Positions 3,416 to 50,691 of a DNA stretch of 64,000 nucleotides are shown piece after piece. The DNA comes from Brachycybe producta. Taxonomy: Eukaryota; Arthropoda; Diplopoda; Playtdesmida; Andrognathidae. The notes beneath the pieces were generated by a model. The model was not told where the DNA came from. It did not search any database and was given only the letters and a program-made list of their open reading frames with translations. Location: assembly GCA_036925085.1 (NCBI GenBank), contig JAUPFP010000067.1, positions 1-64,000 on the forward strand, written 5' to 3'. The number at the start of each line of letters is the position of its first letter. Position 1 is the first letter of the stretch. The position numbers and the translations under genes are program-made.

Positions 3416-3944
3416 CCATTTTGCAGCCATTTTGTGTCCATTTTCGTCGCCAGTTTGTGTCCATTGTCGCCGCCATTTTGCGTCCATTTTCGCCGCCATT
3501 TTGTGTCCATTTTGCCCGCCATTTTGTGTCCACTTTAGCCGCCATTTTGTGTCCATTTTCGTCGCCAGTTTGTGTCCATTGTCGCCGCCATTTTGTGTCC
3601 ATTTTCACCACCATTTTGTGTCCACTTTAGCTGCCATTTTGTGTCCATTTTCGCCGCCATTTTGTCTTTTTTCACCACCATTTTGTGTCCATTTTCGCCG
3701 CCATTTTGTGTCCATTGTCGCCGCCATTTTGTGTCCACTTTAGCCGCCATTTTGTGTCCATTCTTGCAGCCATTTTGTGTCGTTTTTTCACGGCCATTTT
3801 GTGTCCATTTTCACCACCATTTTGTGTCCACTTTAGCTGCCATTTTGTGTCCATTTTCGCCGCCATTTTGTCTTTTTTTCGCCACCATTTTGTGTCCATT
3901 TTCGTCGCCATTTTGTGTCCATTTTAGTCGCCATTTTGTGTCCA
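3416..3944 (+). repeat. 23-bp satellite, same orientation as left block
   Basis: Diverged 23-bp units again in the CCATTTTGTGTCC orientation, directly after the 12-bp array. Units such as 'ccactttagccgccattttgtg' match those of block 1-1418, so the 12-bp array looks like an insertion into, or expansion within, one 23-bp array. Confidence 0.95.
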
Positions 3945-4794: not shown

Positions 4795-7700
4795 ATGAAA
4801 ATGGCGACGAAAACGGCCACAAAATGGCGGCGAAAATGGACACAAAATGACAACGAAAATGGACACAAAATGGCGACAAAAATGGACACAAAATGACAAC
4901 GAAAATGGACACAAAATGGCGACGAAAATGGACACAAAATGGCGACGAAAATGGACACAAAAGGCGACGAAAATGGACACAAAATGGCGACGAAAATGGA
5001 CACAAAATGGCGACGAAAATGGACACAAAATGGCGACGAAAATGGACACAAAATGGCGGCGAAAATGGACACAAAATGGCGGCGAAAATGGACACAAAAT
5101 GGCGACGAAAATGGACACAAAATGGCGACGAAAATGGACACAAAATGGCGGCGAAAATGGACACGAAATGGCGACGAAAATGGACACGAAATGGCGACGA
5201 AAATGGACACGAAATGGCGACGAAAATGGACACAAAATGGCGGCGAAAATGAACACAAAATGGCGGTTAAAGTGGACACAAAATGGCGGCGAAAATGGAC
5301 ACAAAATGGCGACTAAAATGGACACAAAATGGCGGCGAAAATGGACACAAAATGGCGGCGAAAATGGACACAAAATGGCGACGAAAATGGACACAAAATG
5401 GCGACGAAAATGGACACAAAATGGCGACGAAAATGGACACAAAATGGCGACGAAAATGGACACAAAATGGCGGCGAAAATGGACACAAAATGGCGGCGAA
5501 AATGGACACAAAATGGCGACGAAAATGGACACAAAATGGCGGCGAAAATGGACACAAAATGGCGGCGAAAATGGACACAAAATGGCGACAAAATGGCGAC
5601 GAAAATGGACACAAAATGGCGACGAAAATGGACACAAAATGGCGACGAAAATGGACACAAAATGGCGGCGAAAATGAACACAAAATGGCGACGAAAATGG
5701 ACACAAAATGGCGGCGAAAATGGACACAAAATGGCGGCGAAAATGGACACAAAATGGCGGCGAAAATGGACACAAAATGGCGGCGAAAATGGACACAAAA
5801 TGGCGACGAAAATGGACACAAAATGGCGGCGAAAATGGACACAAAATGGCGACGAAAATGGACACAAAATGGCGGCGAAAATGGACACAAAATGGCGGCG
5901 AAAATGGACACAAAATGGCGGCGAAAATGGACACAAAATGGCGGCGAAAATGGACACAAAATGGCGACGAAAATGGACACAAAATGGCGACGAAAATGGA
6001 CACAAAATGGCGGCGAAAATGGACACAAAATGGCGGCGAAAATGGACACAAAATGGCGGCGAAAATGGACACAAAATGGCGGCGAAAATGGACACAAAAT
6101 GGCGGCGAAAATGGACACAAAATGGCGGCGAAAATGGACACAAAATGGCGACGAAAATGGACACAAAATGGCGGCGAAAATGGACACAAAATGGCGGCGA
6201 AAATGGACACAAAATGGCGGCGAAAATGGACACAAAATGGCGGCGAAAATGGACACAAAATGGCGGCGAAAATGGACACAAAATGGCGGCGAAAATGGAC
6301 ACAAAATGGCGGCGAAAATGGACACAAAATGGCGGCGAAAATGGACACAAAATGGCGGCGAAAATGGACACAAAATGGCGGCGAAAATGGACACAAAATG
6401 GCGACGAAAATGGACACAAAATGGCGGCGAAAATGGACACAAAATGGCGGCGAAAATGGACACAAAATGGCGGCGAAAATGGACACAAAATGGCGGCGAA
6501 AATGAACACAAAATGGCGGCGAAAATGAACACAAAATGGCGGCTAAAGTGGACACAAAATGGCGGAGAAAGTGGACACAAAATGGCGGCGAAAATGGACA
6601 CAAAATGGCGGCGAAAATGGACACAAAATGGCGACGAAAATGGACACAAAATGGCGACGAAAATGGACACAAAATGGCGACGAAAATGGACACAAAATGG
6701 CGGCGAAAATGGACACAAATGGCGGCGAAAATGGACACAAAATGGCGACGAAAATGGACACAAAATGGCGGCGAAAATGGACACAAAATGGCGGCGAAAA
6801 TGGACACAAAATGGCGGCGAAAATGGACACAAAATGGCGACGAAATGGACACAAAATGGCGGCGAAAATGGACACAAAATGGCGACGAAAATGGACACAA
6901 AATGGCGGCGAAAATGGACACAAAATGGCGGCGAAAATGGACACAAAATGGCGACGAAAATGGACACAAAATGGCGACGAAATGGACACAAAATGGCTAC
7001 GAAATGGACACAAAATGGCGGCGAAAATGGACACAAAATGGCGGCGAAAATGGACACAAAATGGCGACGAAAATGGACACAAAATGGCGACGAAAATGGA
7101 CACAAAATGGCGACGAAAATGGACACAAAATGGCGACGAAAATGGACACAAAATGGCGACGAAAATGGACACAAAATGGCGGCGAAAATGGACACAAAAT
7201 GGCGGCGAAAATGGACACAAAATGGCGACGAAAATGGACACAAAATGGCGACGAAAATGGACACAAAATGGCGACGAAAATGGACACAAAATGGCGACGA
7301 AAATGGACACAAAATGGCGGCGAAAATGGACACAAATGGCGGCGAAAATGGACACAAATGGCGGCGAAAATGGACACAAATGGCGGCGAAAATGGACACA
7401 AAATGGCGACGAAAATGGACACAAAATGGCGGCGAAAATGGACACAAAATGGCGGCGAAAATGGACACAAAATGGCGGCGAAAATGGACACAAAATGGCG
7501 ACGAAATGGACACAAAATGGCGACGAAAATGGACACAAAATGGCGGCGAAAATGGACACAAAATGGCGGCGAAAATGGACACAAAATGGCGGCGAAAATG
7601 GACACAAAATGGCGACGAAAATGGACACAAAATGGCGACGAAATGGACACAAAATGGCGGCAAAAATGGACACAAAATGGCTACGAAATGGACACAAAAT

Positions 7701-10700
7701 GGCGGCGAAAATGGACACAAAATGGCGACGAAAATGGACACAAAATGGCGACGAAAATGGACACAAAATGGCGACGAATATGGACACAAAATGGCGACGA
7801 AAATGGACACAAAATGGCGACGAAAATGGACACAAAATGGCGGCGAAAATGGAAACAAAATGGCGGCGAAAATGGACACAAAATGGTGACGAAATGGACA
7901 CAAAATGGCGGCGAAAATGGACACAAAATGGCGACGAAAATGGACACAAAATGGCGACGAAAATGGACACAAAATGGCGGCGAAAATGGACACAAAATGG
8001 CGGCGAAAATGGACACAAAATGGCGGCGAAAATGGACACAAAATGGCGGCGAAAATGGACACAAAATGGCGACGAAAATGGACACAAAATGGCGGCGAAA
8101 ATGGACACAAAATGGCGGCGAAAATGGACACAAAATGGCGGCGAAAATGGACACAAAATGGCGGCGAAAATGGACACAAAATGGCGGCGAAAATGGACAC
8201 AAAATGGCGGCGAAAATGGACACAAAATGGCGGCGAAAATGGACACAAAATGGCGGCGAAAATGGACACAAAATGGCGGCGAAAATGGACACAAAATGGC
8301 GGCGAAAATGGACACAAAATGGCGACGAAAATGGACACAAAATGGCGGCGAAAATGGACACAAAATGGCGGCGAAAATGGACACAAAATGGCGGCGAAAA
8401 TGGACACAAAATGGCGGCGAAAATGAACACAAAATGGCGGCGAAAATGAACACAAAATGGCGGTTAAAGTGGACACAAAATGGCGGAGAAAGTGGACACA
8501 AAATGGCGGCGAAAATGGACACAAAATGGCGGCGAAAATGGACACAAAATGGCGACGAAAATGGACACAAAATGGCGACGAAAATGGACACAAAATGGCA
8601 GCGAAAATGGACACAAAATGGCAGCGAAAATGGACACAAAATGGCGACGAAAATGGACACAAAATGGCGGCGAAAATGGACACAAAATGGCGACGAAAAT
8701 GGACACAAAATGGCGGCGAAAATGGACACAAAATGGCGACGAAAATGGACACAAAATGGCGACGAAAATGGACACAAAATGGCGACGAAAATGGACACAA
8801 AATGGCGACGAATATGGACACAAAATGGCGGCGAAAATGGACACAAAATGGCGACGAAAATGGACACAAAATGGCGGCGAAAATGGACACAAAATGGCGG
8901 CGAAAATGGACACAAAATGGCGACGAAAATGGACACAAAATGGCGACGAAATGGACACAGAATGGCGGCGAAAATGGACACAAAATGGCGACGAAAATGG
9001 ACACAAAATGGCGGCGAAAATGGACACAAAATGGCGGCGAAAATGGACACAAAATGGCGGCGAAAATGGACACAAAATGGCGACGAAAATGGACACGAAA
9101 TGGACACAAAATGGCGGCGAAAATGGACACAAAATGGCAGCGAAAATGGACACAAAATGGCGACGAAAATGGACACAAAATGGCGACGAAAATGGACACA
9201 AAATGGCGACGAAAATGGACACGAAATGGCGACGAAATGGACACAAAATGGCGGCGAAAATGGACACAAAATGGCGACGAAAATGGACACGAAATGGCGA
9301 CGAAAATGGACACGAAATGGCGGCGAAAATGGACACAAAATGGCGACGAAAATGGACACAAAATGGCGGCGAAAATGGACACAAAATGGCGGCGAAAATG
9401 GACACAAAATGGCGGCGAAAATGGACACAAAATGGCGACGAAAATGGACACGAAATGGACACAAAATGGCGGCGAAAATGGACACAAAATGGCAGCGAAA
9501 ATGGACACAAAATGGCAGCGAAAATGGACACAAAATGGCGATGAAAATGGACACAAAATGGCGGCGAAAATGGACACAAAATGGCGACGAAAATGGACAC
9601 AAAATGGCGACGAAAATGGACACAAAATGGCGACGAAAATGGACACGAAATGGCGACGAAATGGACACAAAATGGCGGCGAAAATGGACACAAAATGGCG
9701 ACGAAAATGGACACAAAATGGCGACGAAAATGGACACGAAATGGCGACGAAATGGACACAAAATGGCGGCGAAAATGGACACAAAATGGCAGCGAAAATG
9801 GACACAAAATGGCGACGAAAATGGACAAAAAATGGCGGCGAAAATGGACACAAAATGGCGGCGAAAATGGACACAAAATGGCGACGAAAATGGACACAAA
9901 ATGGCGACGAAAATGGACAAAATGGCGGCGAAAATGGACACAAAATTGTGGCGAAAATGGACAAAATTGTGGCGAAAATGGGCACAAAATGGTGGCTAAA
10001 ATGGACACAAAATGGCGACAAAAATGGACACAAAATGGCGGCGAAAATGGACACAAAATGGCAGCGAAAATAGACACAAAATGGCGGCGAGAATGGACAC
10101 AAAATGGCGACAAAAATAGACACAAAGTGGCGGTGAAAATGGACACAAAATGGCTGCGAAAGTGGACACAAAATGGCGGCGAAAATGGACACAAAATGGC
10201 GGCTAAAGTGGACACAAAATGGCGGCTAAAGTGAACACAAAATGGCGGCGAAAATGGACACAAAATGGCGGCGAAATGGATACAAAATGGCGGCGAAAAT
10301 GGACAAAATGGCGGCGAAAATAGACACAAAATGGCGGCGAAAATGGCCACAAATTGGCGGCTAAAGTGGACACAAATTGGCTGCTAAAGTGGACACAAAA
10401 TGGCGGCTAAAGTGGACACAAAATGGCGGCTAAAGTTGACACAAAATGGCGGCGGAAATGGACACAAAATGGCGGCGAAATGAATACAAAATGGCGGCGA
10501 AAATGGACACAAAATGGCGGCGAAAATAGACACAAAATGGCGCCGAAATGGACACAAAATGGCGGCGAAAATGGACACAAATTGGCTGCTAAAGTGGACA
10601 CAAAATGGCGGCAAAATTGGACACAAAATGGACGTGAAAATAGACCGAAAATGGTGACGAAAAATGGACCCAAATGGCGGCGAAAATAGACACAAAATGG

Positions 10701-10983
10701 CGGCGAAAATAGACACAAAACGGCGGCGAAAATGGACACAGAATGGCGGCTAAAGTGGACGCAAAATGACGGCGAAATGGACACAAAATGGCTGCTAAAG
10801 AGGACACAAAATGGCGGCGAAATGGATATAAAATGGCGGCGAAAATGGACACGAAATGGCGGCTAAAGTAGACACAAAATGACGGCAAAAATAGACACAA
10901 AATGGCGGCGAAAATGAACACAAAATGGCGGCTAAAGTGGACACAAAATGGCCTTGAAAATAGACCGAAAATGGACACAAAAT
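4795..10983 (-). repeat. 23-bp satellite, inverted block (ATGGCGGCGAAAATGGACACAAA)n
   Basis: About 265 copies of the 23-bp unit, now on + as ATGGCGGCGAAAATGGACACAAA, the reverse complement of the left block. The commonest variant is GGCGACG for GGCGGCG. The inner part, 5000-9900, is very homogeneous and the outer edge, 9950-10983, is diverged. Marker units with 'gaacacaaaatggcgg(c/t)taaagtgg' followed by 'ggagaaagtgg' occur near 6505 and again near 8424, which gives a higher-order duplication with a spacing of about 1920 bp. No coding signal beyond the repeat itself is seen. Confidence 0.97.
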
Positions 10984-11152
10984 GTCTATGCTAAAGTTTC
11001 GTCTGCTAACTTCTTTTGGGGGGGGGATGTCATATTTTCGCCTACTGCCACTAGAGGCGCTTATTGAACATAAGGTTCATTTTGTCTATTATACCGACAT
11101 CCGGTACAGTTAATGAATGAAACTGAACACGTGGATGTGCATTTACAGCAAA
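10984..11152 (+). promoter_or_regulatory. QTRT1 promoter/5' UTR interval next to satellite
   Basis: Only 169 bp separate the last recognisable satellite unit from the QTRT1 start codon, so the core promoter must lie here or inside the satellite. No TATA box is evident. The interval has a run of nine G at about 11028-11036 and 'cgccactagaggcgc'-type GC islands. The transcription start is not determined. Confidence 0.4.
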
Positions 11153-14100
11153 ATGGGTGACGTTGTAATGTGTAAAAAACATGCTTTAACCTTTGACATC
11201 TTAGCTAAGTGCTCCAAGTCGAAAGCGCGTACGAGCACCTTGATTTTACCCCACGGAAAAGTCGAAACGCCTGTTTTTATGCCGGTTGGAACACAAGGTA
11301 CGATGAAAGGCCTTTTACCAGAGCAATTGAAACAACTGAACTGTCACATTATGCTCGGAAATACATATCATCTGGGAATGAGACCTGTACGTATGATGTC
11401 ACACAACATCAAAAAAGCAATCAGAAACTTTGTGACGTCAAAGGATTGCTTGCTCATCTTCAAACAAAACAAATCGCACGTTACGAATCTTTCGTATTGC
11501 ATTAGAATGGGTGATAAAATTTGAAGTGGTGTGAACCAACGTGGCGTTCATTACTGCTTTTCAAAGGGAGTCACGCGCCATATTAGGACACCTTATTGGC
11601 TTCCTAAAAATACAAGCATGTGAAGACAGGGAGATACAATCGTTTGGCCAGCCCCTTTAAGAGCGTCAGACCAAATATAAACCCATTGGAAATGGAAAAG
11701 GGAGGGGGAATGTGACGTCAAAATACATAACAAACCAATTATAAGTTGCCGGTACTAATAAAAGGGGCGGAGCAAACGACTGTAGCCTACTCATGGCCTA
11801 CTATAGGGACTCGGTACCGTAGGCTGTAGGAACTAGCTTTAGCCCATTAGTATTAGCAGAACGCATGCGTATTGCGATCTTATCGTTTTATATAGGATTT
11901 TATATAGGTTTCCTATAGTGAACGTGTCATCGGCAGTTTCCATTGGTGATCAATAGATGGCGCTGCTAACGCAAATCTGCAATCACTTTCCTATATAAAC
12001 CGATAAAATGGCAATACGCATGCGCTCTGCTAATGCTAATGAGCTAATGAGCTAACGCTAGTGGCTGTGTAGGAGACTATGGGACGATACGGAAGCCCGA
12101 TAGGCTCCAGTATCTCGGCATTATGATTAATTCACACTGCAAATTAAAAAAAATAACATTACTGAAAGCAACTAAGAAAGTTAGAAACTAGAAGAGTAAT
12201 TTGCAGTTTGAAAAATGTGTCAAAAGACTCAAAATATAAAACGAAAAAGAGATTCTAATAACATTTTAAAATGTAACTTGCAAATTATGCAAATTAATGA
12301 AAGAAAAAAAAACTGAAAGAAGTAAAAAAACTAAAATAAAAATGTTTCTGTTTCAAATCTTATTTTTCTTTTCTTATAATTAACTTGAAAAACCCCAACC
12401 CTGATATTTTACATTGAGTGCTAGTAAAACCTTCCTGTTGTTTTCGTTATTTTTTTTAAAAGGGTGCACAGTTATTAAATGAAGCTGGAGGACTCCATAC
12501 ATTCAGCGGCTGGGACCGTAACCTTTTAACAGTATAGTATCACGATAAATTTAATAAAAATGATAAGAAAAAATAACGAATTATGGTTTTCTATCAACAT
12601 TACAGGACAGCGGTGGCTTTCAGATGGTTTCGTTGGTCGAACTCTCCGAAGTGACCGAAGAAGGAGTTAAATTTCGATCTCCTTACGACAACCGCGAGAT
12701 CATGTTAACACCGGAAAAATCGATCGAAATCCAGGAGAATATCGGAGCAGACATAATAATGCAACTAGACGACGTCGTGTCGAGTACGGTGACCGGTCCG
12801 CGAGTCGAAGAAGCGATGCATCGTACGATACGATGGTTAGATCGTTGCATCGCGGCACATAAAAAGACAGAAACGCAAAATCTGTTTCCGATCGTTCAGG
12901 GTGGATTAAACGAGGAACTGAGACGTAAGTGTGCTGCGGAAATCGTAAAGAGAGACGTTGCCGGATACGCCATCGGAGGTCTCAGTGGTGGAGAAGCGAA
13001 AGAACATTTTTGGAAGATGGTCGACGTCAGTACGGATTGTCTTCCGGCCGAGAAGCCGAGATATCTCATGGGTGTTGGGTACGAAATAGAGAGAAAACAA
13101 ATATGAGATCACTTAAATCGGTCGAGCCCTAATAACTGGGTTACATATTGAATTGTCATAATATTGGTTTTTTTTTACATTCAAGGTGTGCAGTCGATTT
13201 GGTCGTTTGCTGTGCTCTCGGAGTTGACATGTTCGATTGCGTCTTTCCGACACGTACTGCCGTAGGTTGCGCATTCATTTTCTCTTAAGTTTCGACCTCT
13301 ATTGTAAAATATGCCAAAAGAAATGGAGGAAAAAAACTAGCTACTCCTCTCGATTTCGTGTCGTACATGTTTTGACCCTTTGTGGCATGAACTATCGAAA
13401 AGTCTTGCCTTTTCAGAGTGACTAGCTCAAGAGTGGCGGGGAAAAAGGATAACTGTTGGCGGCCTTGACGGATATATTCATTCTTAGTTCTTGAACCTAC
13501 TGCTCCATCTGTGCAATGGGACGTTTTCCAGGGCTTCGTCAGACAATCGGAAGATTTCCCAGCCACTTTCTCCGTAATTGCGGCTACCCTTCTATTTTCT
13601 AAAAACATTTTCTAGTTTCTCTTCATTGTTTCTCTTCAAAATATTGACGAGTTTGAAAGGCGTTTACAGCTTTAAAACAGCCGATCTTGCAATAAAATCA
13701 AAATAATTGAATTTTGTTTCTATGTTGCAGAGGTTTGGAACAGCTTTAGTTCCGACTGGAATGTTGATGTTAAAGAATCGAAAATTTAGTGAAGATTTCA
13801 GACCGATCGATTCCGATTGCAATTGCTACACGTGCCGAAATCACAGCCGAGCTTTTTTGCATTCGATCGTGACGCAAGAAACTGTCGCTTGCCATTTGGT
13901 TTCGATTCATAATTTGGCTTACCAAGTAAACAAAACAAAACTGACCACAAAACTTTTATTCTGTTACAATTTATTTATTATTTTGCAGATGAATTTAATG
14001 AATTCAATTCGTAAAAGTATCGCGGAAGACAAGTTCGAAGAATTTGTAAATAGGTTCTTGTATCAATTGTATCCGAACGGCGAAGACATTCCGAAATGGG

Positions 14101-14153
14101 CAATCGATGCTTTAAATGCGGTTAACATTCGTGTCGATCGCAATGTTGTTTAA
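11153..14153 (+). CDS. QTRT1: Queuine tRNA-ribosyltransferase catalytic subunit 1 (QTRT1/TGT), six exons, complete
   Basis: Exons are 11153-11386, 12463-12531, 12606-13078, 13186-13261, 13731-13925 and 13989-14153. All introns are GT-AG and the frame stays open to a TAA, giving 403 aa, the length of human QTRT1. In the family, this subunit pairs with QTRT2 and exchanges guanine 34 for queuine in the anticodons of Asp, Asn, His and Tyr tRNAs. Visible motifs are [10 protein letters not shown] near the N-terminus, the DSGGFQ loop with the nucleophile-pocket Asp at about residue 102, [33 protein letters not shown] with the second catalytic Asp at about 276, and the zinc site C-x-C-x2-C at about 314-319 with a His near 344. 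The start at 11153 fits the family N-terminus; an in-frame ATG at 11117 would add 12 residues. Intron 1 (about 1.08 kb) contains a foldback element and a decayed MITE. Confidence 0.96.
11620..11850. mobile_element. Decayed hAT-type MITE in QTRT1 intron 1
   Basis: The left end 'gcatgtgaagacagggagatacaatcg' and right part 'ggggcggagcaaacgactg' resemble the element at 38779-39027, including the internal 'agcgtcagaccaaatat' and 'ccattggaaat' segments. The terminal CAGGC motifs are degraded. Confidence 0.55.
11822..12076. repeat. Imperfect foldback element in QTRT1 intron 1
   Basis: The arms share 'agcagaacgcatgcgtattgc' on the left and 'gcaatacgcatgcgctctgct' on the right, plus 'gataaaacgatatag'-like stretches. 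The centre contains 'agatggcgctgctaacg'. It lies wholly within the intron. Confidence 0.6.
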
Positions 14154-20401: not shown

Positions 20402-37461
<17,060 letters not shown>

Positions 37462-39119: not shown

Positions 39120-39480
39120 TTTGTCCTAAAACAATTTACCCTAAAGGGCCATTTTCCCTAAAGGGACATTTGCCCTAAAGGTACATTTGCCCTAAAAAGA
39201 CATTGTCCTAAAGGGAGATTTGCCCTAAAGGGACATTTGTCCTAAATTGATGTTCCCCTAATGAGTAGTCTAAATATACAGTAATTGGTTTTAGGGCAAA
39301 TGTTCCTTGAGGGCAAATAGTTTTAGGGCAAATGGTTTTAGGGCAAGTGGTTTTAGGGCAAATGTTCTATTAGTGTAAATTGTGTTTTAGGGTAAATGCT
39401 TTTAGGGCAAGTGTTCCTTTAGGGCAAATGTTCTATTAGGGTAAATGGTTTTAGGGAAAATGTTCCATTAGGGTTAATTG
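39120..39480. repeat. 17-bp minisatellite (CCCTAAAGGGACATTTG)n, with strand switch
   Basis: About 39130-39245 reads 'ccctaaagggacatttg'. About 39280-39480 reads its inverse, 'ttagggcaaatg(g/t)ttt'. The array is therefore itself an inverted repeat. Related to the array at 25770-26249. Confidence 0.85.
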
Positions 39481-40382
39481 TTTTATGGCATGGATCGAGA
39501 GAGGGCAAGATAATGTTGACATAATTGCTGGGCACAATTGCCTGTGATAAACTGTAGTTTAATTTTGCTACTATTATCCCCTCCCCTTTTTATATTTGAA
39601 ATTCGTTTGTTCCTTTTTTTTACTCCTTTCATTTCAATTTCAGTTTTCCTCCTCCCACTTTTTCACCCTCCACGTTTCTCTTTCTCTACTCCTTCTACAC
39701 TTTCCAACCTTTTCCCCTCTCCACTTGAATATCATGGGGTTCTTGGATGGGAAGAGTTCAACATATAGTAGACCTTGAGAAAAAAAAAAGCAGTTCATTT
39801 ATTTAAATTTATATAAATTCCGACACAGGGTTAGTTCCCTCTCACACACACAGATCTGGGATATTATATATATATAACTAGTGAGGACATTAAATAGACA
39901 TTATATTGGTCTAGTCCTCACAGGGCCGGTAGAATTAGTGACCTAGCCAATCACTATTAATACGAGTGTAAACTCGCTCGTATCACTTTAAAAGAGCAGA
40001 TTCTACCTGTGGAAATAGGTCTGTCCCAATAAAATGTTTATTTTTTTAAGTTAATATAATCTGCTACCATATTCTAGTTTTGAAAACAATTTCAAATTTC
40101 TTCGTAACGTCGTTTCTAAACAAAAATTTCCCGGCCTTGACGTTTTTATGTCAACATTTTCTATATAACTTAGCATTAGCATCTTCTAGTTTCTCTTAAT
40201 TTTGCTCCTGAAAAACAAAACTAATCAAGTAGTTGAAAATAACCTGTTTATAAACGATATCTTAAAATTAATAAAACACGGTGGAAAGAAAAGTTTTTTG
40301 TTTGCTGCAAATTTTATTGTTTAACGTTACATTTTGACAAACTTGAAATATTCATAAAAATACATTTCAAATGTAATAATAG

Positions 40383-40824
40383 TCAACGTCCTGATAGAAT
40401 TCCAGTACAACGAGACATACACTGATTAAATGATGAGCTTCCAGGCGAAGCTTTCATGGCACACGAACCTGAACAAACAACACTTCCAAAACTACCTACA
40501 TATTTCGAAAAACCGATTACAAACACAGAATTCAGCGACAAAGGCTAAAAAAATGACTTATCTTGATGACTACACACTCGCGATAAATTGCAGTAAATAC
40601 TAGGGCTAGGACAACATTTTCGATATCAAATTTGCAATATTGTAAAAAAAATATTTTTTTATTTAAAAAAATAAAAGCTTGTACCGAAAAAACGTAGCCC
40701 AATTTGCCCCAATTATTATTGCCCCAAATGAAACAAACCGATTCAACTTACAAGAAACGAAATCAACCGCAACCAACGACAACAAGATAAAACAAACCGC
40801 AAAGAAGAAGAGCAACGATTTCAT
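40383..40824 (-). CDS. Secreted Cys-hairpin peptide, copy 1 (61 aa, two coding exons)
   Basis: Coding exons on the minus strand are 40824-40752 and 40495-40383, joined in phase 1 (TTCTT|GTAAG ... TGTAG|GTAG). Exon 1 encodes a 24-residue signal peptide with a long Leu/Phe/Val core. Exon 2 encodes the mature peptide, with four cysteines spaced C-x3-C-x13-C-x3-C plus a junctional Cys six residues before the first of them. The loop begins with an A-M-K-A-x-P-G motif. A TTTATT (AATAAA on -) lies at 40313-40318, 65 nt beyond the stop. The spacing resembles two disulfide-stapled helices (alpha-hairpinin or CS-alpha/alpha type). Function is unknown: antimicrobial, venom-like or signalling roles are all possible. 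Its signal peptide differs from those of the other copies. Confidence 0.8.
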
Positions 40825-40991
40825 ATTTATAACCTTTTTCAACAAACAAACACAAAAAAAAAAATACCCAAAATTTACTTTTCGATTTTCGATTTAGAAA
40901 TAAAAACACAAATCTTACCCCAAAAGAAAAGAACTCAGGAAAATAAATGACGGCAAAGTTTAAAAAAATTGTAATTTCAGTTCTGATGTGA

Positions 40992-40997
40992 AACACA

Positions 40998-41028
<31 letters not shown>
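40992..41028 (+). repeat. CT microsatellite
   Basis: A (ct)n run of about 17 dinucleotides between peptide copies 1 and 2. Confidence 0.9.
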
Positions 41029-41031
<3 letters not shown>

Positions 41032-41186
41032 ATATAGACATTGGTGGTGAGGTTACAACATCCCAAGTATGAAATTAAAAGTCCAGCTGGACTGCGCCAC
41101 AAAGAAAGGCGGGTTCCGACACGAACCTCATCTCGCATGACGAGAAGGGTTGGAAGTGGAGGCTAAGCAATGCTGCTAGGCTTTAA

Positions 41187-41563
41187 AAGGTGGCTGAATA
41201 GATATTTATTTTTATTTTTATTTGCTGGGACATAGCCTCCTTATAGTAGAATAGTATAAGGAGGCTATGGCTGGGATGACGCGCCACTACAGTGGCTAAT
41301 GATACACTCCATAGACTTTTTTTTTTGGAAAATTTGGACGGAAAAACGTCAAGCGAACGTTTTTTTTTTATTAGAAACTTATTTTCAAAACTAGAATTGT
41401 AAAGATTATGCTAGAAGTTTTTTTTTTGCATGGCAATATCTTACAAAACAAACACTTTATAGTTCAATTTGAAAAATGACCTATTTTTAGGCTTTTCTAT
41501 TGACGTTTCATGAAGTGCCACCTCAGAAGATAAAACCAAAATAAATATCTATTCAGCCACCTT
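41187..41563. mobile_element. MITE with AAGGTGGCTGAATAGATATTTATTT termini
   Basis: The 25-bp termini are inverted at 41187-41213 and 41538-41563. Internal segments 'actccatagac' and 'cgtcaagcgaacgtttttttt' recur at 15745-15800 and 47870-48070. A solo right end is at 48330-48354. Confidence 0.85.
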
Positions 41564-42617
41564 AATTGAGATGAACTACGATAATTGGTGCATCATCAGT
41601 CCCCCTCCCCACCCCCCATGAGTAAAGGAGAAAAAGCTCACTTTCTCCAATTAGTAGTCATTTGTTTAGTTAGAACTTGTATAGTTGAGGATGTTAATTT
41701 GGCCTCTGGTCAGAAGGGCCCGCAGCACTTCTCAGTAATCTAATGTCATTTCCTAATACCTAGCCTCCACCACCAACCCTCATCATCGTGCCAGATGGGT
41801 GCAACACCCAGAAAAAAAAAACGAATGTAACAATTACAACAGATAATAAGCATTTCCATAGGCTACTTCGGTAAAACATTAGCTCAGCTGCCAAACTTGT
41901 TCGTAATTGCAACTTTCACAAAAAGCGTATTGTACTTCTGTTATTAATTTATCAACAAAGGCCACAAAATGACAACTTTGGTACACTTGGTTTTGTCTAA
42001 GAGAGAGCTATTAATTGGGCTGAGAAATTCGGAAACAATTAAAAATGGCACGAATATGACGAGAGGATCTGGAATGAATAAAAAAAGGACCGTGTTTATG
42101 CGGGAGAGGAGTAGGGCCCACTTATTTCGCTAGAAGTGACAATGTATGTCCCCCTTCTATATGCAGGCTCCACTCCTAATATATATGCGTTCTGATCGGG
42201 ACAGACACAAGGTGATGCCCTGAAAAGCACCGAAATGAACTCATTGGGGGGTGGGGGGGGGGGCAACAGACTTCCGAAGTCCGTAAAAACCCATAAATTC
42301 AAAAAATGAAAATTTCTCAAGAGGTTTCGGGAGGTCCCAAGAGACAATAAAAACCCTCTTTAATGATTTTTTCACCAGTCAATTGTGGGATACTTCCTCA
42401 AGTATATCTTCCAAAAAAAATAATGCATTAATGAAAGGAAAGGACCACCGGACTTTATTTTTAGAAACGGAAAAAAATGCTGGGATCTGTTTTATTTTTA
42501 TTGTATAATTTAAATGTTGAAATAAACGTGAATATTTTTTTTAAAAAAATCATTTGATTTAAATCATTGCCACCCTGATTTCAAACAATTTCATGTTAAA
42601 TGTTGGTCCAACATTAA
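41564..42617. other. Gap between peptide copies 1 and 2
   Basis: AT-rich sequence with C/G homopolymer runs (41610-41620, 42247-42261). No Cys-pair exon, RNA gene or conserved frame was found. Confidence 0.5.
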
Positions 42618-42685
42618 TTTATTAATACATTTGAATAAACCACCAAAGTAATAGAAATTTGAAATTGTTGTAATTATGTTACAAG

Positions 42686-43855
42686 TCAACCGACGATACC
42701 ATAACACCGCACCAAGCAATCGTCATAATCTTGGGTTCCAGGTTGATCAAGTACAGCACAGCTATGGTGACAAAAGTCTTCAGCCAAACTATCTACATGT
42801 TTAAAAGAAAACCCTTCAACAACAACACTTAAAACTATAGCCGATGCAACACGTAGCAACAATTCAGCAACATATATGGGGATGTTGCTCTATTGTTTTA
42901 TGAAAGTTGAAACATCTCTCAGGCTTGGTTTATACTCCCTAGCTAAGCGGTAAAGCAGCCTGCAAAGCGGTAACAAACCGAATTGTTGCTTACAAATTGA
43001 CAAAGCAACGGAATTTTCAAATAGAACTTGGTTTCTATTTTCAGGCAACCCTTTCAGCTAACAGCCAATAAAAACAGTTTTTATAATCACATGACTAGAT
43101 TATATTGTTCTTGATTGAATTTGATAAAGGTATTGCTTATAAAAAAGTTATAATTCACAATTAGGAATTATTTAAGTAGAATTATTTAAAGCAACAGCTT
43201 TTTTTTTCTACGGACAAAAGATGACGTCACCATCTTTGTCTCACAACCTTTTTGGTTTCATTGGTTGTTGCTTTCAAAAATGAGTTACGATTTGAAGACT
43301 TAGTAAGTTTCATGAAAGTTGCTACATGTATCGTAGTTGTTCTTCTAGCAACAACAACACAAATGGGAAACTACTGTTGCTACAACTAGTACTGTTGCTA
43401 CTGTTGCTGTTGCTACGTGTAGTCCGGCAACACAAAGACAACTTTAAATTGTTGCACCACAAAAGTGCTCGTCTTTAGCAGATCAATGATTACATAGTTG
43501 TTCATTGGCAATAGACCACTCAGTGGCGCCATTGGCAATAGACCGCTCAGTGGCGCCATTGGCAATAGACCGCTCAGTGGCGCCATTGGCAATAGACCAC
43601 TCAGTTGTGTCAGTTGGCAGTTTACTTACAATAAACAGCATTGATGAATATCAAGAAAAAAATGCAAATGAAGGAATTAAATAATGAATTCATGGTGTTT
43701 AACCTTTTCTGAAATAGATTAAAAGTTTCAATTTTTTTTTTGAATCAATAAAGATTATAAAGTTCAAGAGATTCTTACCAAAAAAAAAAGTTCTACAAAA
43801 ATATATGAAGTAGAAACCAATAGAAAAGTTCCTACTAAGTTGAATAAAAATGAAA
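42686..43855 (-). CDS. Secreted Cys-hairpin peptide, copy 2 (56 aa)
   Basis: The coding parts are 43693-43630 (signal peptide, 21 aa, beginning MNSLF and ending INAVY) and 42792-42686 (mature part), joined in phase 1. The mature core is again C-x3-C-x13-C-x3-C, with an acidic loop (D-x-P-G...D-Y-D-D). An upstream non-coding exon is likely: a donor at 43778-43777 and acceptor TTTCAG at 43711-43709 define a 70-nt 5' UTR intron, with a TATATAAA box at 43884-43891. The feature start on the minus strand is an estimate of the transcription start; coding begins at 43693. AATAAA on the minus strand lies at 42623-42618. Confidence 0.85.
43507..43614 (+). repeat. 27-bp tandem repeat, four copies (GGCAATAGACCRCTCAGTGGCGCCATT)
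   Basis: Four units start at 43507, 43534, 43561 and 43588. The last is degenerate. It lies just downstream, in array terms, of copy 2's coding exon 1. Related single motifs 'tagaccactctgtggcaccac' occur near 37627. Confidence 0.95.
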
Positions 43856-43883
43856 TTATGCAACTTTGAAATGCAAAATTCTC

Positions 43884-43891
43884 TTTATATA
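43884..43891 (-). promoter_or_regulatory. TATA box of peptide copy 2
   Basis: TATATAAA on the minus strand, about 105 nt upstream of the inferred 5' UTR donor. The equivalent TATAAAAA of copy 3 is at 45854-45847. Confidence 0.55.
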
Positions 43892-44147
43892 CTTAGTTAC
43901 TATCACTACACAAAGCATAAAGCTTAAAAGAACCTTTGTATTCAAATTGAAGTGCTCAGCTGTTATAATTTTAAAGCAATTTTTTTCAATAAATTTACAA
44001 CAAAACTTGCAATGACAATTCTATTGTCTCCCTCTAAAGACATTGATTGACATCTACTTTACTATTTATTTTTCTTCAGAGATTTTTACTGAAAGAACAC
44101 GAGTACAGTGTATGTTCAAATCTTGTTAGTGACTATAATTATAAATA

Positions 44148-44288
44148 ACAGGCGTTTGGATCCAGCACAAGAAATTCGTTTGCTCCACCGTTTTATGAGC
44201 GTCAGACCAAATATCAACCAAATAAAAATTGCCGTCCCTCGTAAAAGGGCGGAGCAAACGAATTTTTTGCGCTGGATCCAAATGCCTA
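44148..44288. mobile_element. hAT-type MITE between peptide copies 2 and 3
   Basis: 'aacaggcgtttggatccagc' pairs with 'gctggatccaaatgcct'. The inner arms carry 'aaattcgtttgctccaccg' / 'gggcggagcaaacgaattt'. Confidence 0.85.
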
Positions 44289-45266
44289 TTTAAAAATGTT
44301 CTAATTATAATTTGCAAACAGCACCGATATATCTAAAGGTGGACTTTCATCATGCGCACTTTGAGCTTCCAAATTCACACTCATGAGTTGTACGTGTGTA
44401 CAACACAGCGCACAAATCATCGCGTGCACATTATTAGGAGTGTCGGCCGTCAACTGTGCGCCTTAAGAGTCCAGACAACTCAATTTGCAGTGTTTTTTGC
44501 ACATGCTTCATGACTCCATAGACGCATTGGTTAAGCGAAATTTGATGTTTCCAACCAAAAAAAAAAAACATGGGTCTTAATTCTAGCCACCTTATTGCCT
44601 TTTAGTTGATTTTTAAAAATGGCATTTTTTTTTTGGCAAATATTTAAAGGAGTTTTTAATTTATACAATCTTGAATTATGCTAATTTGCTGAACCCATGT
44701 TTAAGACCTATTAACTTCAAAAAGGTCCAGTTTGCTAGCCACCTACCTAGCTGTTGGTTCTTTAAAATCATCTTTCAAAGCTTTATGAAAAATTGAATGC
44801 ATTCCTTAATATGTTCTATAGATATTAAGGTAAATTTGTGTTGTTTCCAACTGCTGTTTAGTTGCTACACAAATTTAGGCAACTTTTTAACCACAAAATT
44901 GACCATGTGTATGAATTTCACGTTGAAACTCTGGATTATCTATCTAGGCTCAGATATTTTGCTGTGTTTTTGTTGTGCTCTTGTGTTTTTACTTACGAGA
45001 TGTCATCTTTTTTCAGCCAATTGGAGTGGCCAGTAGGTCTATCTAAAGACTTTTGTGTTTTCCCTACAACATGTTGTGCAACCATATAAACAAATACATA
45101 CAGTTTAAGGTGCAAAAAAAAAACCTTTTTCACAAACCGTTGCATTGATAAGAGCTTTAAACAATTTTGTGTTTAACTTTTTTCAAAATTTATTTCTTGC
45201 AAACCATTTGAATTGAATGCACACAGCAAACATTACAGAAATTGTCTTAGAATAATACAGTATAAG

Positions 45267-45618
45267 TCATGGCAAAACACCTCCACAACGTTGCAAGCAA
45301 GTATTATAAGTTGCGCTTCCAGGTTGCGCTTTCATAGAACATGCACTTTGACATACGGAACCGAAAAAACCACCTGCCAGGTTTAAAAACAAAAACTTAA
45401 CAACCAACATTCCCGTTAAAATACGATCTGCAGCACTTGTTCAAAAGTGGGGGTGGGGAAATAGGTGTCGGCACCACATTGCGTCATAATAGAGTGCAAG
45501 TGACATCGACTAAATTTTAATTTCACTTAAATAGAATCTTACAGTTTCACTTACTATAAACAGCATTGATGAATAGAAACAGAAAAATGCAAATGATGAA
45601 AACGAGTTCCGAATTCAT
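45267..45618 (-). CDS. Secreted Cys-hairpin peptide, copy 3 (56 aa)
   Basis: Coding exons are 45618-45555 (signal peptide of 21 residues, beginning MNSEL and ending INAVY) and 45373-45267 (mature part, stop TGA). They join in phase 1 to give a Ser at the junction. The core is C-x3-C-x13-C-x3-C, with S-M-K-A-x-P-G at the start of the loop, very close to copy 1. The putative 5' UTR donor seen in copies 2, 4 and 5 (GTAAGAAT) reads GAAAGAATC here, so that intron may be lost or retained. The TATA-like sequence is at 45854-45847 and the AATAAA equivalent at 45194-45189. Confidence 0.87.
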
Positions 45619-46847
45619 TGTTAAAAGAATACTTAGCACAGAAATTGCACCTTTTTTTTCTGAAAAAAAAAAAAATCCAAAATTTATAATTGGTGTCAGA
45701 ATAATAAAAAAAAAAATCGGAACCTTTTTTTTTGCCCACAAACCTCAAGATTCTTTCCAAAAATAAAAATTTCTAGCAAATGAAATTCGAGAAATCGTCA
45801 AACCATAAGAGAAATTAAATTATGAAACGTCTAAACTAAAAATTCCTTTTTATATTATTAAATATATTCGGAAAAATACACAAAATTGAACAGCTGTGTC
45901 ACAATTAAAAAGCTATTTTTTTATACAAAATAATCAGCTTGTAACATTTTGTTAATAACATTTATTGTTCAAGTTTGTTATAATTATATTTCCATTTTCT
46001 ATTCTTTTGTTAGATTTTTTTTTGCTGAAACAATGAGTATTTTAGTTAGCAATTAAGATGATTCTAACTACAATTAGCAAATGCTGCAAACAATTATGTT
46101 TTTTTTCTTAACAATACATTTTTTGTTAAAAAAAAATACATGAATATTTCTGTTAATGGCTATTCAGCAATGTAAATATTGATTCCCAGTAAGCATTTTT
46201 CCTTTCTAGGCAGCATAACTACAGTCACACTACTACAGTAGAGAACCCGCCCAAAGACTGCATTTGAAAACTCCTAGGTTTGCATGAAACAAAGGTTTGT
46301 ATGAACTCATTAGGAGCATTAAATTAACTATCAAGCCAGGAGCGCGGACTGAGCGAGAAAAAAAAAAGAAAACCGCTCGAGAAAAATTATTTGTCCGACC
46401 CTGAAGTTACACGTACGCAAATAGAAGCGGTTATACGCCGATACCATGAATGCTTCCATAGGTGTTACGTAGGCCTACTGTACAGTGTACATCGTCAGTT
46501 AAGAAGTGATACCATGTAACTGACATTTTTGGTGCTTTTGAGGTTTTCATCATAAAAAGAGCGCAAATTAGAGGTTTTTCAGGCCGATACAGAGTCCACT
46601 CTGTATCGGTATGAATTCGTAAATTGCCTCACTTTCTATATCTTCTTTCTCTTAATCTGTCCCCTTCACAAGAAAGCTATTTTGATTACAAACTACAAAA
46701 CATAAGATGTTACACTCTGCAAATTGTTTCTTTTTATTGATTTATATTCGTACAACTTTTATTAAAATTACATTAAAAGCAAAATTATATTACAACATTC
46801 ATTAATACACAGACACACACACATTATGTTGGATCCTTTTTCTCGAA

Positions 46848-47539
46848 CTAACCCGACAAAACACCTTCACAACGCTGCAAGCAAGTATTATACGTATCAC
46901 AGCTTTTATAGAACAGGCAAATTTACATATTCCTGAACGAAAACCACCTGAAGATTTGTAAAAAAAAAAAAAAAAAACTTGTAACAACAAAATTACCTTA
47001 AAAGGCGGAAACAGAAGAAAGCTGAACTGAAATAATTTTAATAAAACTGAAGATGAAAAAATATTTAAGCTAAAAAATAAATAAAATCAATCTTTTGAGC
47101 TTCAAGCTGAAATATCTAATCTAATTAAATATTCTAAACTTATGAACAAGATACATTTTTGTCGCTTTTAATTACAAAAAAAAAATCTATTAACAAATAA
47201 TTAATGAAAAATGCATTATTCTAAAATGCACTTTCTAGTTTTAAACCATAATATATCTGTAAAAATGTCGACTTTCATTTTCAGCTTTCATCTGAATGCA
47301 TAAAGCTGCATGCAGCTGAAACTGAACAGTTGAACACACTTTGCATCTTCCGCTCATTTTTTGTTGCTATTTTCAAAAAACCCAATCTAGAATTCACTTA
47401 CAATAAACAAAAGGAGCAATGACGACTTCATAGTTGCAGAATTGTACTAGATACTAGAAGATCCTTTTCTGAAATAGATTTTACAATATTTGTTTTAAGA
47501 ATAAAGAAAAAACCTCTAATAAAGGCTGCAAATTGTTAC
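46848..47539 (-). pseudogene. Secreted Cys-hairpin peptide, copy 4, decayed
   Basis: Exon 2 relic at 46947-46848: the sequence up to the second Cys codon aligns with copy 3. A deletion of about 10 bp in the loop then shifts the frame, and the second CxxxC pair is recognisable only in the shifted frame. Exon 1 relic at 47431-47402 is truncated to ten codons and ends in phase 0 instead of phase 1, so the exons no longer join in frame. The 5' UTR intron signals are intact (donor 47539-47538, acceptor 47471-47469). All three defects agree, so an assembly error at one site is an unlikely full explanation. Confidence 0.8.
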
Positions 47540-47749
47540 CAAGATGTGTCTCGAAACAGGTGTCAAACCAGTTGGTTGATTAATGGAATTTTGGAAATAT
47601 AATTAATCTCTGCCACAATATTTATATTAGGGACTTAGCCTAATAAGCAATAGGCCTAATTCTTGGTTGACCTTAAGATACACATCGCAAAATTACTTCG
47701 AAAAATCTCCACAAAGTAACACATTTAACAGTATTCATTATACCATACA

Positions 47750-48360
47750 AAACAAATTTACATAGTAAAAACCACGAGAAGGAAGGAAGGAAGGAAGTAC
47801 CACTTGTAAGCAACACTAGAATGTTTGTTGTCCTTCTCGGAACGCGTCCCAGCTGTGGCTAATGCAACTCCATAGACGTTTTTGTAAAATTTAGACACAA
47901 AAACGACTAGCATTAGAGGGCTTGGAGTCGTCTTCATACATTTCACAGCGCCATCTATTGCGTAACCTAACAACCTAACCTAAAGACTATCACCATAAAG
48001 ATGACTCGAAGTCGAGCGTTCCAAGTCCTCTCTCTGATCTTACGCAAAAATGTCAAGCGAACGTTTTTTTTTAAACATTATGAAAAAAATTCAAACTGTC
48101 ATAAAAAGTTTATTTCGAAAGATATAATGAAAAAAACACTCTTAGCATTATCACCAACTATTCTAGTTTCTAAAACAATGAATTTTTTTTTACTGAAAAG
48201 TTTCTTCTAAAAAACATTTGTTTGCAAAATATAAATTTTCTTAAAAACCATAGGTGGAGGAAAGAGACCTCACCGCTCCTATAGAACATAATAGCAACTG
48301 TGGTTAGCACCATCTGGGGGACCAATATCAAATAAATATCTATTCAGTCACCTAAATAGA
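47750..48360. mobile_element. Decayed MITE related to 41187-41563, with nested repeat pieces
   Basis: It shares 'gtggctaatgcaactccatagacgttttt' and 'aaaatgtcaagcgaacgttttttttt', and ends 'aaataaatatctattcagtcacct'. A GGAA microsatellite is at 47780-47797. Confidence 0.6.
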
Positions 48361-48559
48361 TATACTTTAGTGATGTTTGCAATTGTGCTTACATGAGGAA
48401 ACTTTCTTTTTTGCCAAATATTTGTAGAAAGTGAAGTTGTGTTTTCTATGTCATGTGATCATATTAATACCAATAAATGACTTTTCACTTTGCGATTCTC
48501 GGAAACGACTAGCTTAGCCTTTATTTCAACCAAACCAAATAATTATCAGATGTTAAGAG

Positions 48560-48870
48560 GGTATTTATTTCCATAAAAACCAGTTCGCATCAGTACCCTA
48601 AGGAAAGAATGATTACGAACTTACGAAACCAAAATATCATCCCTCTCGAATGGCCGCGGCATGTCGCCCAGACTTAAATCCTATAGAAAACTTTTGGGAC
48701 AACATCATCATAAGTAACGATTAAGCAGATTGCTATGATTATACTACAATAGCAGAGCTGAAAAGTGCAATTTTAGCCACTTTGGGGCAGAATTTCTGTA
48801 AATTTCCTTATAAATATTCCGTGAAGTATGTAGGAAAGAATATTTTAAATTAAAGTGCTTCGGAAACTGA
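48560..48870 (+). pseudogene. Tc1/mariner transposase C-terminal relic
   Basis: A frame ending in N-I-I-P-L-E-W-P shifts at about 48652 into R-P-D-L-N-P-I-E-N-F-W-D, the conserved Tc1-type DDE segment. An in-frame TAA follows at 48722 and a further recognisable stretch follows it (T-T-I-A-E-L-K-S-A-I). One frameshift and at least one stop are present, and no N-terminal DNA-binding domain or terminal repeats were found. Confidence 0.8.
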
Positions 48871-49182
48871 ACCGAACCCAATGGATTTGCTAAGCATAAG
48901 GTATTGCTAAACTCGACATCTTTCAATAGAAAGTTTCATGTAAAAGTGGATGAGTTTAGCACTAACTTTAACTTAATAGTCATTAAGATTACCAAACCTT
49001 AGTTTTCTGATTGAGCCCATTAACCAAATTTAGCCGTAACCGAGATTTTAAGAGAAAACAAAAATTAAATTTCGTACGACTTTATTTCAAAATGTTTATT
49101 ATTTTAAATCTTTTGTTCAATACAAAGATATACGGCTTAGAATGCTTCGGTATTCACGATGATATTTAACCTTGCATTGTCA

Positions 49183-49831
49183 CTAAGGTATTAGCATACG
49201 TTTGGCACATTCTTTAAAGCAATCGCTGTAAGTCGACTGACCAGATTGAGCTTCCTTGATACACTTCTGGTCACATATGGAACTGAACAGATCACCTGCA
49301 CGTTAAAACAAAAACAAACAACCATCATGTTTCAACTTTTCACACCAAAAAAATAATATGCATTAATGAAAGGACTAAATAAACGTAATTTTTTTCTAAA
49401 AAAAAATCATTTGATTTAAATCACTGCCACCCTGGAGGAGGGTACTTTAAATAATTTCCTTGTTCAATTTTGGTAACAGGGAAATACTGCACAGAGTGAC
49501 ATCTGGCGAGTACGATACGAAGGATGGTGACAAGGCAGTACACACCCTTCGTACACACACACCAGGCCTCAATTCTATCAGTCCAGATCTGTACCGGAAT
49601 GGCCACCTTTACACTCATGTCTACTGAAAACTCTCAAAACGAAAACTTCCAGTCCCCACCCCCCCCCCCCCCCCCCTCTAGCTCAGTACCTAAATACAAG
49701 GGCTCGGATTTTTGATATTGTACAAAACTCTGAGCCCTACTAATTAAAGACCTCTGCCATCACTTACAATGAAGAACATCGACGACCACCAATAAGAAAA
49801 TGCAAACGACGAAGACGAACAATGAATTCAT
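49183..49831 (-). CDS. Secreted Cys-hairpin peptide, copy 5 (58 aa)
   Basis: Coding exons are 49831-49768 (21-residue signal peptide, beginning MNSLF, with a Val/Phe/Leu core) and 49295-49183 (mature part, stop TAG), joined in phase 1. The core is C-x3-C-x13-C-x3-C, with an additional junctional Cys as in copy 1. The second helix is basic (K-E-C-A-K-R). The 5' UTR intron runs from 49922 to 49850 (73 nt, GTAAGAATTT...CTTTCAG). AATAAA on the minus strand lies at about 49100-49095. This copy is the most diverged of the MNS-type copies. Confidence 0.85.
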
Positions 49832-50691
49832 AATTGAATCGAACCTTCTCTGAAAGATAGTTAAACATGTTTTCAGCTTAAGTTGGGGGTGAAACCACAA
49901 ACAAGAACGGAAAAATTCTTACAGAAAAAACTTCCAAATATGATTAACTATTGCAAAAAAAAAGGAAAACTTTTTAAATTACTTCCGAGCAGTAGAATAA
50001 TTTCTAAATTAAAAAAGAACTTTGATATAGCATTATATATACCAATAAATATAAAGTAAATATAAAAGCGACCCCAGCCTTTTACACAAATTTAAACAGC
50101 TGTTTGTTGTACGTTTCGAATATATTTCTTAGAAATGAAACGTCTTGAACACCTGTTTTAATTTCAGAATTATTTACTTTCCCTATCAATTTATATGCCA
50201 ATTTGCTGTTCCAATCTTTATAATGTAAAACAATAATTACACAAAGTTCTTTCCTCTTCCATTTTTCACGTGAATTTTACGACAAAGACCACCTATGCCA
50301 CCGAGTATATAATCTCGGTTGAAAGTCGTTTTAAAGTGTAAACGAGACTTCTCAAACTCTAGTTATTCTGTGTTTTCAGGTGCAAAATTAAGAAGAAAAA
50401 AAACTTGAATCTTGTTTTAGAAACTAGAAGAATAGCTCAATAATATAAGGTTATTTTTCATGTTGATATCTTTTAAAATAAATTTTTCATGCGAGTTTTC
50501 GAAAGAAAAAAAGCCAATTTTAAAGCAGACAGTATTTTTTTTTACGTTTTTGTCTATAAAAAAGTATACACCCTTCTAGCTACCTTTCTAGTTTCTAAAA
50601 CACATTCAAGTTTATCTTCATGTCGCACCTGAAAGACAAGAAGTTCGACAGGCCCCGTTTACACTTGAAAACCGCATTAAGTTATTAATTA

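Follow-up and report, generated by a model that had tools for sequence, protein, structure and literature searches.

Plant alpha-hairpinins form a class defined by the core CX3CX4-20CX3C, in which the cysteines may be the sole conserved residues, and some of them are cut from multi-domain precursors (PMC11591084). In EcAMP1 and VhTI, the cysteines are placed at positions 7, 11, 25, and 29; the lengths given are 33 residues for MBP-1 and 37 for EcAMP1, and the same motif and connectivity (C1-C4, C2-C3) are described for kappa-hefutoxins and some cone-snail peptides (PMC7191063). Here, we consider a group of five related gene copies (c1-c5) of the millipede Brachycybe producta, all on the minus strand within positions 40383-49831 of the window, i.e., the first 64 kb of contig JAUPFP010000067.1 (879,648 bases; 295-Mb assembly, 442 contigs). 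Four copies are intact and c4 is broken. The explanation that we rank first, while giving it somewhat less than an even chance, is that they constitute an orphan, tandemly arranged family of secreted, disulfide-locked helical hairpins, most likely serving host defence and convergent with the alpha-hairpinins.

The initial annotation described tandem genes for a family of secreted peptides, each gene with two coding exons and the copies about 2 kb apart, and this layout holds. The second exons start 1.6-2.6 kb from one another, and each intact copy (c1, c2, c3, and c5) consists of a signal-peptide exon, a phase-1 intron, and a single mature-peptide exon, with secretion being predicted. The introns, 256, 837, 181, and 472 nt long in c1, c2, c3, and c5, respectively, follow GTAAGT...AG in all four genes, and the gene models comprise 61, 56, 56, and 58 residues. 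The mature exon holds 34-36 whole codons, a range slightly narrower than the 34-37 residues reported at first. Hydrophobic N termini are present in every intact copy (best 12-residue mean hydropathy 2.9-3.8); they start with MNS in c2, c3, and c5, and with MKS in c1, as also in c4. The signal of MNS...FINAVY type, originally ascribed to three copies, is found in c2 and c3, but c5 shares only its start and ends differently. In c4, a deletion and a frame shift affect the mature exon, and the first exon is shortened. As was proposed, genes of this kind are too short and split for open reading frame callers. The c2 intron also carries a nearly perfect 27-bp tandem repeat (43503-43605), and two stretches of an interspersed sequence, 73-80% alike in pieces, lie beyond the c2 3' end (42413-42577) and in the c5 intron (49348-49434).

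The cysteine spacing C-x3-C-x13-C-x3-C is identical in all four intact copies, as claimed before, and its assignment to the helical-hairpin pattern C-x3-C-xn-C-x3-C also stands, with n = 13 lying within the C-X3-C-X(4-20)-C-X3-C core of alpha-hairpinins in 4/4. If numbering starts at the first complete codon of that exon, from which the real mature N terminus may differ, the cysteines occupy positions 7, 11, 25, and 29 in each intact copy, the numbers and the x13 spacing reported for EcAMP1 and VhTI. The earlier statement that no named family has x13 has to be withdrawn in view of these two peptides (PMC7191063) and of the x4-20 span of the class (PMC11591084). Scanning all six frames of the window for CX3C-X(9-18)-CX3C gave seven matches; the four on the minus strand are all x13, and the three on the plus strand have other spacings, two of them within satellite DNA. 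When x13 with no further internal cysteine was demanded, four occurrences were found in the window, all on the minus strand and all in family copies, and none in another 100.5 kb taken from the same contig. Dinucleotide shuffling of the 12.5-kb region produced the pattern once in 400 shuffles (mean 0.0025), and with four observed against this mean a chance origin of the pattern is excluded. With further cysteines allowed, the next 60 kb yielded a few matches in cysteine-rich low-complexity frames; three of these are x13, and none looks family-like by eye.

The copies, judged from their sequences, are old and probably derive from tandem duplication. In tblastn over 124 kb, the mature exons match in the pairs c1-c3, c1-c2, c2-c3, and c3-c5 (E 7e-11 to 2e-5), with no match for c1-c5 and c2-c5 in the same search. 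Among the signal exons, mutual matches were obtained for c2, c3, and c5 (E 7e-5 to 1e-3); the c1 signal exon matches no other copy at E 0.05 and was therefore assigned by position, donor, and phase. Over the six pairs, the mature core shows 43-61% nucleotide and 28-48% amino-acid identity. The signal exon was said to be much more conserved than the mature part; it is more conserved, although moderately, with amino-acid identities of 62, 43, and 43% in the three c2/c3/c5 pairs compared with 34, 31, and 38% for the mature core. Nonsynonymous (dN) and synonymous (dS) divergence of the mature core, estimated by NG86, amounts to 0.47-0.90 (six pairs) and 0.66-1.94 (five pairs; undefined for c1-c5), respectively, the dS values being near or beyond saturation. 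The resulting dN/dS is 0.79 for c1-c2, 0.48 for c1-c3, 0.45 for c2-c5, 0.46 for c3-c5, and 1.10 for c2-c3. These ratios, 0.45-0.79 in four of six pairs, together with saturated dS and strongly retained cysteines, do not bear out the proposed diversifying effectors, and positive selection as a demonstrated property was rejected in view of the few pairs and the saturation. The comparison of the two exons suggested in the initial annotation gave a signal exon lower in both dN (0.23-0.33) and dS (0.29-0.86; three pairs, c1 being left out because of its different length). Amino-acid constraint alone thus does not explain the contrast between the exons, and local gene conversion is a possible source of it. 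The retention of the scaffold was compared with a neutral simulation, in which c3 served as the ancestor under an equal-rates model with 50,000 draws per setting. The probability of keeping an open frame and four cysteines was 0.0019 at the divergence of c1, 0.0011 at that of c5, and 0.0005 at that of c2 (0.010 at 30% divergence). Since c1, c5, and c2 all retain the frame and all four cysteines despite these low values, the cysteine scaffold is maintained by selection, beyond neutral expectation.

Searches for relatives returned only the copies described above. Each of the four mature peptides, as well as the DNA around exons 1 and 2 of c3, found copies at this locus only in the 295-Mb genome, in a search that scores word-sharing candidates (2 to 4 per query) and that very diverged copies could escape. 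No further copies were found in the 60 kb to the right of the window; the left flank is the remainder of the window, as the contig begins at its first base. The four-copy alignment, compared with 5.8 billion proteins, gave five candidates, none at E <= 1. In Pfam, c1 and c5 had only matches below the cutoff, and c2 and c3 had none; NCBIfam likewise gave below-cutoff matches only. One sequence search of PDB returned two unrelated matches (E 0.96 and 1.5), another returned none, and neither found a hairpinin; Rfam gave no match on the window. A kinship of exon 2 with some large known family built differently, named in the initial annotation as a finding that would refute its reading, was looked for in Pfam, NCBIfam, PDB, and the 5.8 billion proteins, and none was found. 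In the literature on millipede, springtail, and arthropod peptides, no peptide of this pattern was recognised from titles and abstract openings. As far as these sequence comparisons reach, the family appears to be an orphan, known so far from one locus only.

The relation to the plant peptides has to be considered in the light of predicted structure. AlphaFold2 (AF2) models of c3 and c5 (mean predicted local distance difference test, pLDDT, 82.2 and 83.3) both show two helices in a helix-loop-helix arrangement. Foldseek returned nine PDB matches for c3, all weak (E 3.4-9.5), including three vicilin-derived peptides, which we take to be of alpha-hairpinin type, and Tim9/Tim10; Tim8/Tim13 is also among the weak matches. 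The matches of c5 are unrelated proteins, so that weak alpha-hairpinin matches exist for c3 only. Apart from the cysteine register, the millipede peptides resemble MBP-1 and EcAMP1 in length, share with the alpha-hairpinins a helix-loop-helix that is here only predicted, and in three of the four copies have a proline between the cysteine pairs, although not at position 19, where EcAMP1 has it. However, there are differences: the genes belong to an animal and are split at the signal junction, and each encodes one peptide, whereas some plant members are cut from multi-domain precursors (PMC11591084). No sequence kinship with plant hairpinins was detected in PDB or among the 5.8 billion proteins (E <= 1), which is a weak test of kinship, as the cysteines may alone be conserved (PMC11591084). 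It is likely that the likeness results from convergence rather than descent, and, by analogy, the peptides may work like an alpha-hairpinin.

Non-coding blocks are also common to the copies, as seen in the flank alignment, and they include a proposed short 5'-leader intron in c2, c4, and c5. Its TTTCAG acceptor, read by eye, lies 15, 37, and 18 nt upstream of ATG, respectively. In c3, the leader block is present, but without GT at the corresponding place, and c1 has a donor-like site without a clear acceptor. The end at 49850 given for the cluster in the initial annotation coincides with the edge of the proposed c5 leader intron, although the intron itself was not named. AATAAA follows 63-97 nt downstream of the stop in 4/4 intact copies; in DNA as AT-rich as this, single signals of that kind mean little alone. 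The surroundings of the TATA-like sites of c2 and c3 align with 77% identity over 44 nt.

Defence is the most likely role, by analogy with alpha-hairpinins and with a millipede gland for which 119 proteins with antimicrobial properties were reported (PMC7523956). The net charges of the mature parts, +3 in c1, -5 in c2, +2 in c3, and 0 in c5, argue against a single common membrane-lytic action. A more specific form of this proposal, i.e., the first myriapod alpha-hairpinin-like defence family, of independent origin, in the exact register of the seed peptides EcAMP1 and VhTI and with targets divided among copies of very different charge, seems to us doubtful. The rather improbable idea that the genes encode gland or venom-type CS-alpha/alpha peptides, like scorpion kappa-KTx, acting on animal targets, e.g., from a defensive gland, draws on kappa-hefutoxins and cone-snail peptides falling in the same fold class (PMC7191063; PMC11722136) and on the terminal Gly-Arg of c1 and Gly of c2, such ends being taken as amidation signals (PMC11722136). 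Millipede ozadene glands are also rich in protein, with 2,125 peptides, presumably digest products, obtained by mass spectrometry in one species (PMC7523956). Scorpion kappa-KTx peptides share with the present ones an arthropod source, secretion, and a CX3C-Xn-CX3C helical hairpin (the last two predicted here), and the terminal Gly or Gly-Arg in 2/4 copies fits as well. However, in four kappa-KTx precursor rows counted, 6-9 residues separate the cysteine pairs, compared with x13 here, and the three rows displayed in full contain a propeptide, whereas in the millipede genes the signal exon directly joins a mature exon of 34-36 residues; in both respects, loop length and propeptide, the copies depart from kappa-KTx.

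About equally improbable is a peptide hormone, another signalling ligand, or a reproductive-tract peptide that merely shares the hairpin scaffold. Predicted secretion, a length of 34-36 residues, and the Gly or Gly-Arg end in two of four copies would suit it, and reproductive tissues commonly express secreted peptides that evolve fast and are encoded in tandem. On the other hand, a mature core with 28-48% identity and no relative found is unusual for hormones, although this carries little weight against reproductive peptides. A dying or chance cluster of non-functional genes, for which the one broken copy out of five could be cited, is very unlikely: the pattern far exceeds chance, four frames remain open with their cysteines kept at 43-61% nucleotide identity (neutral probability <0.002 per copy), splice sites are common to the copies, and three have the proposed leader intron. 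Least credible of all is the reading as mitochondrial small Tim proteins (zf-Tim10_DDP). In these proteins, a helical hairpin bears twin CX3C motifs (PMC3759932), and twin CX3C occurs here; c5 has a weak zf-Tim10_DDP score (E 0.039), and the weak structural matches of c3 include Tim9/Tim10 and Tim8/Tim13. However, that score of 13.9 bits stays below the Pfam gathering cutoff of 22.3, and membership was rejected; it concerns one copy of four, c1-c3 not being listed, and two unrelated families give a better E for c5. Small Tims are not secreted, and a hydrophobic signal exon set apart by an intron is not what an intermembrane-space protein would be expected to have.

Table 1. Positions of the exons and proposed leader introns of the five gene copies in the window
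Feature	Position	Strand	Remark
c1 exon 1, signal peptide, GTAAGT phase-1 donor	40752..40824	-	by position, donor, phase
c1 exon 2, mature peptide CX3C-X13-CX3C, C-terminal Gly-Arg (possible amidation signal)	40383..40495	-	
c2 proposed 5'-leader intron, 70 nt, GTAAGA...TTTCAG	43709..43778	-	acceptor side aligns with c4, c5
c2 exon 1, signal peptide	43630..43693	-	
c2 exon 2, acidic mature peptide (net -5), CX3C-X13-CX3C, C-terminal Gly	42686..42792	-	
c3 exon 1, signal peptide	45555..45618	-	89% DNA match to c2 over ~54 nt
c3 exon 2, mature peptide CX3C-X13-CX3C	45267..45373	-	also AF2 model
c4 (broken) proposed 5'-leader intron, 71 nt, GTAACA...TTTCAG	47469..47539	-	
c4 (broken) shortened first coding exon, ends at same donor	47402..47431	-	
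c4 (broken) mature-exon remains; two fragments align with c3, each in another frame	46848..46947	-	
c5 proposed 5'-leader intron, 73 nt, GTAAGA...TTTCAG	49850..49922	-	
c5 exon 1, signal peptide	49768..49831	-	
c5 exon 2, mature peptide CX3C-X13-CX3C	49183..49295	-	also AF2 model

The remainder of the window contains repeats and parts of two other genes. A large satellite block occupies the contig start (1-10974); its 23-bp unit has a single orientation at 1-1418 and 3416-3944, two arrays separated by 2 kb of a repeated 12-bp GC-rich unit, and is reversed at 4798-10974, after an intervening stretch of AAAAACGAA-type and T-rich repeats. Minisatellites at 25776-26246 and 39134-39490 share a TTGCCCTAAAG-type unit, both orientations adjoining in the latter. 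The host was placed by long TTAGG arrays, which suggest an arthropod, and by one gene of the window. Exons of queuine tRNA-ribosyltransferase (QTRT1, tRNA-guanine transglycosylase) lie on the plus strand at 11117-14153. In a tree of 34 of the 240 listed proteins plus the query, whose joined exons omit stretches, QTRT1 forms a group (support 100/98) together with three further sequences and that of the millipede Chamberlinius hualienensis. Against a millipede speak one row of this group that fills just 38% of the columns, the centipede Strigamia falling outside it, and Limulus as the closest named match by score; on balance, these data make a millipede probable. Exons of a tyrosine-kinase-type protein are located at 34937-36596, where one piece narrowly exceeds the Pfam cutoff and another falls short of it. 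Inspection by eye suggests a transmembrane segment preceding the kinase, which itself is interrupted by a long low-complexity insert.

If the copies are an orphan hairpin family in host defence, a course of events can be proposed. The intact genes probably have separate transcripts, a short leader intron being proposed in three of the five copies, and the product is predicted to enter the secretory pathway and to be freed of its signal peptide at most a few residues away from the exon junction. The mature peptide would then be oxidised to a helix-loop-helix with two disulfides, the expected pairing being C1-C4 and C2-C3, and the C-terminal Gly-Arg of c1 or Gly of c2 could yield an amide. Once released, whether at a body surface, in the gut, or with the secretion of a gland, the peptides would probably target microbes or small attackers, like the plant alpha-hairpinins. 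The copies would continue by birth and death, as the broken c4 suggests, with a constant cysteine scaffold and a net charge ranging from -5 to +3. The locus adds an orphan peptide family that annotation readily misses to a poorly studied group of arthropods, and illustrates that open reading frame callers and protein databases can overlook 35-residue peptides whose genes are split. It is also a candidate for a clear-cut instance of evolution converging on the disulfide-locked helical hairpin, and, if the peptides are active, the four intact copies would represent a natural series in which one scaffold carries charges from -5 to +3.

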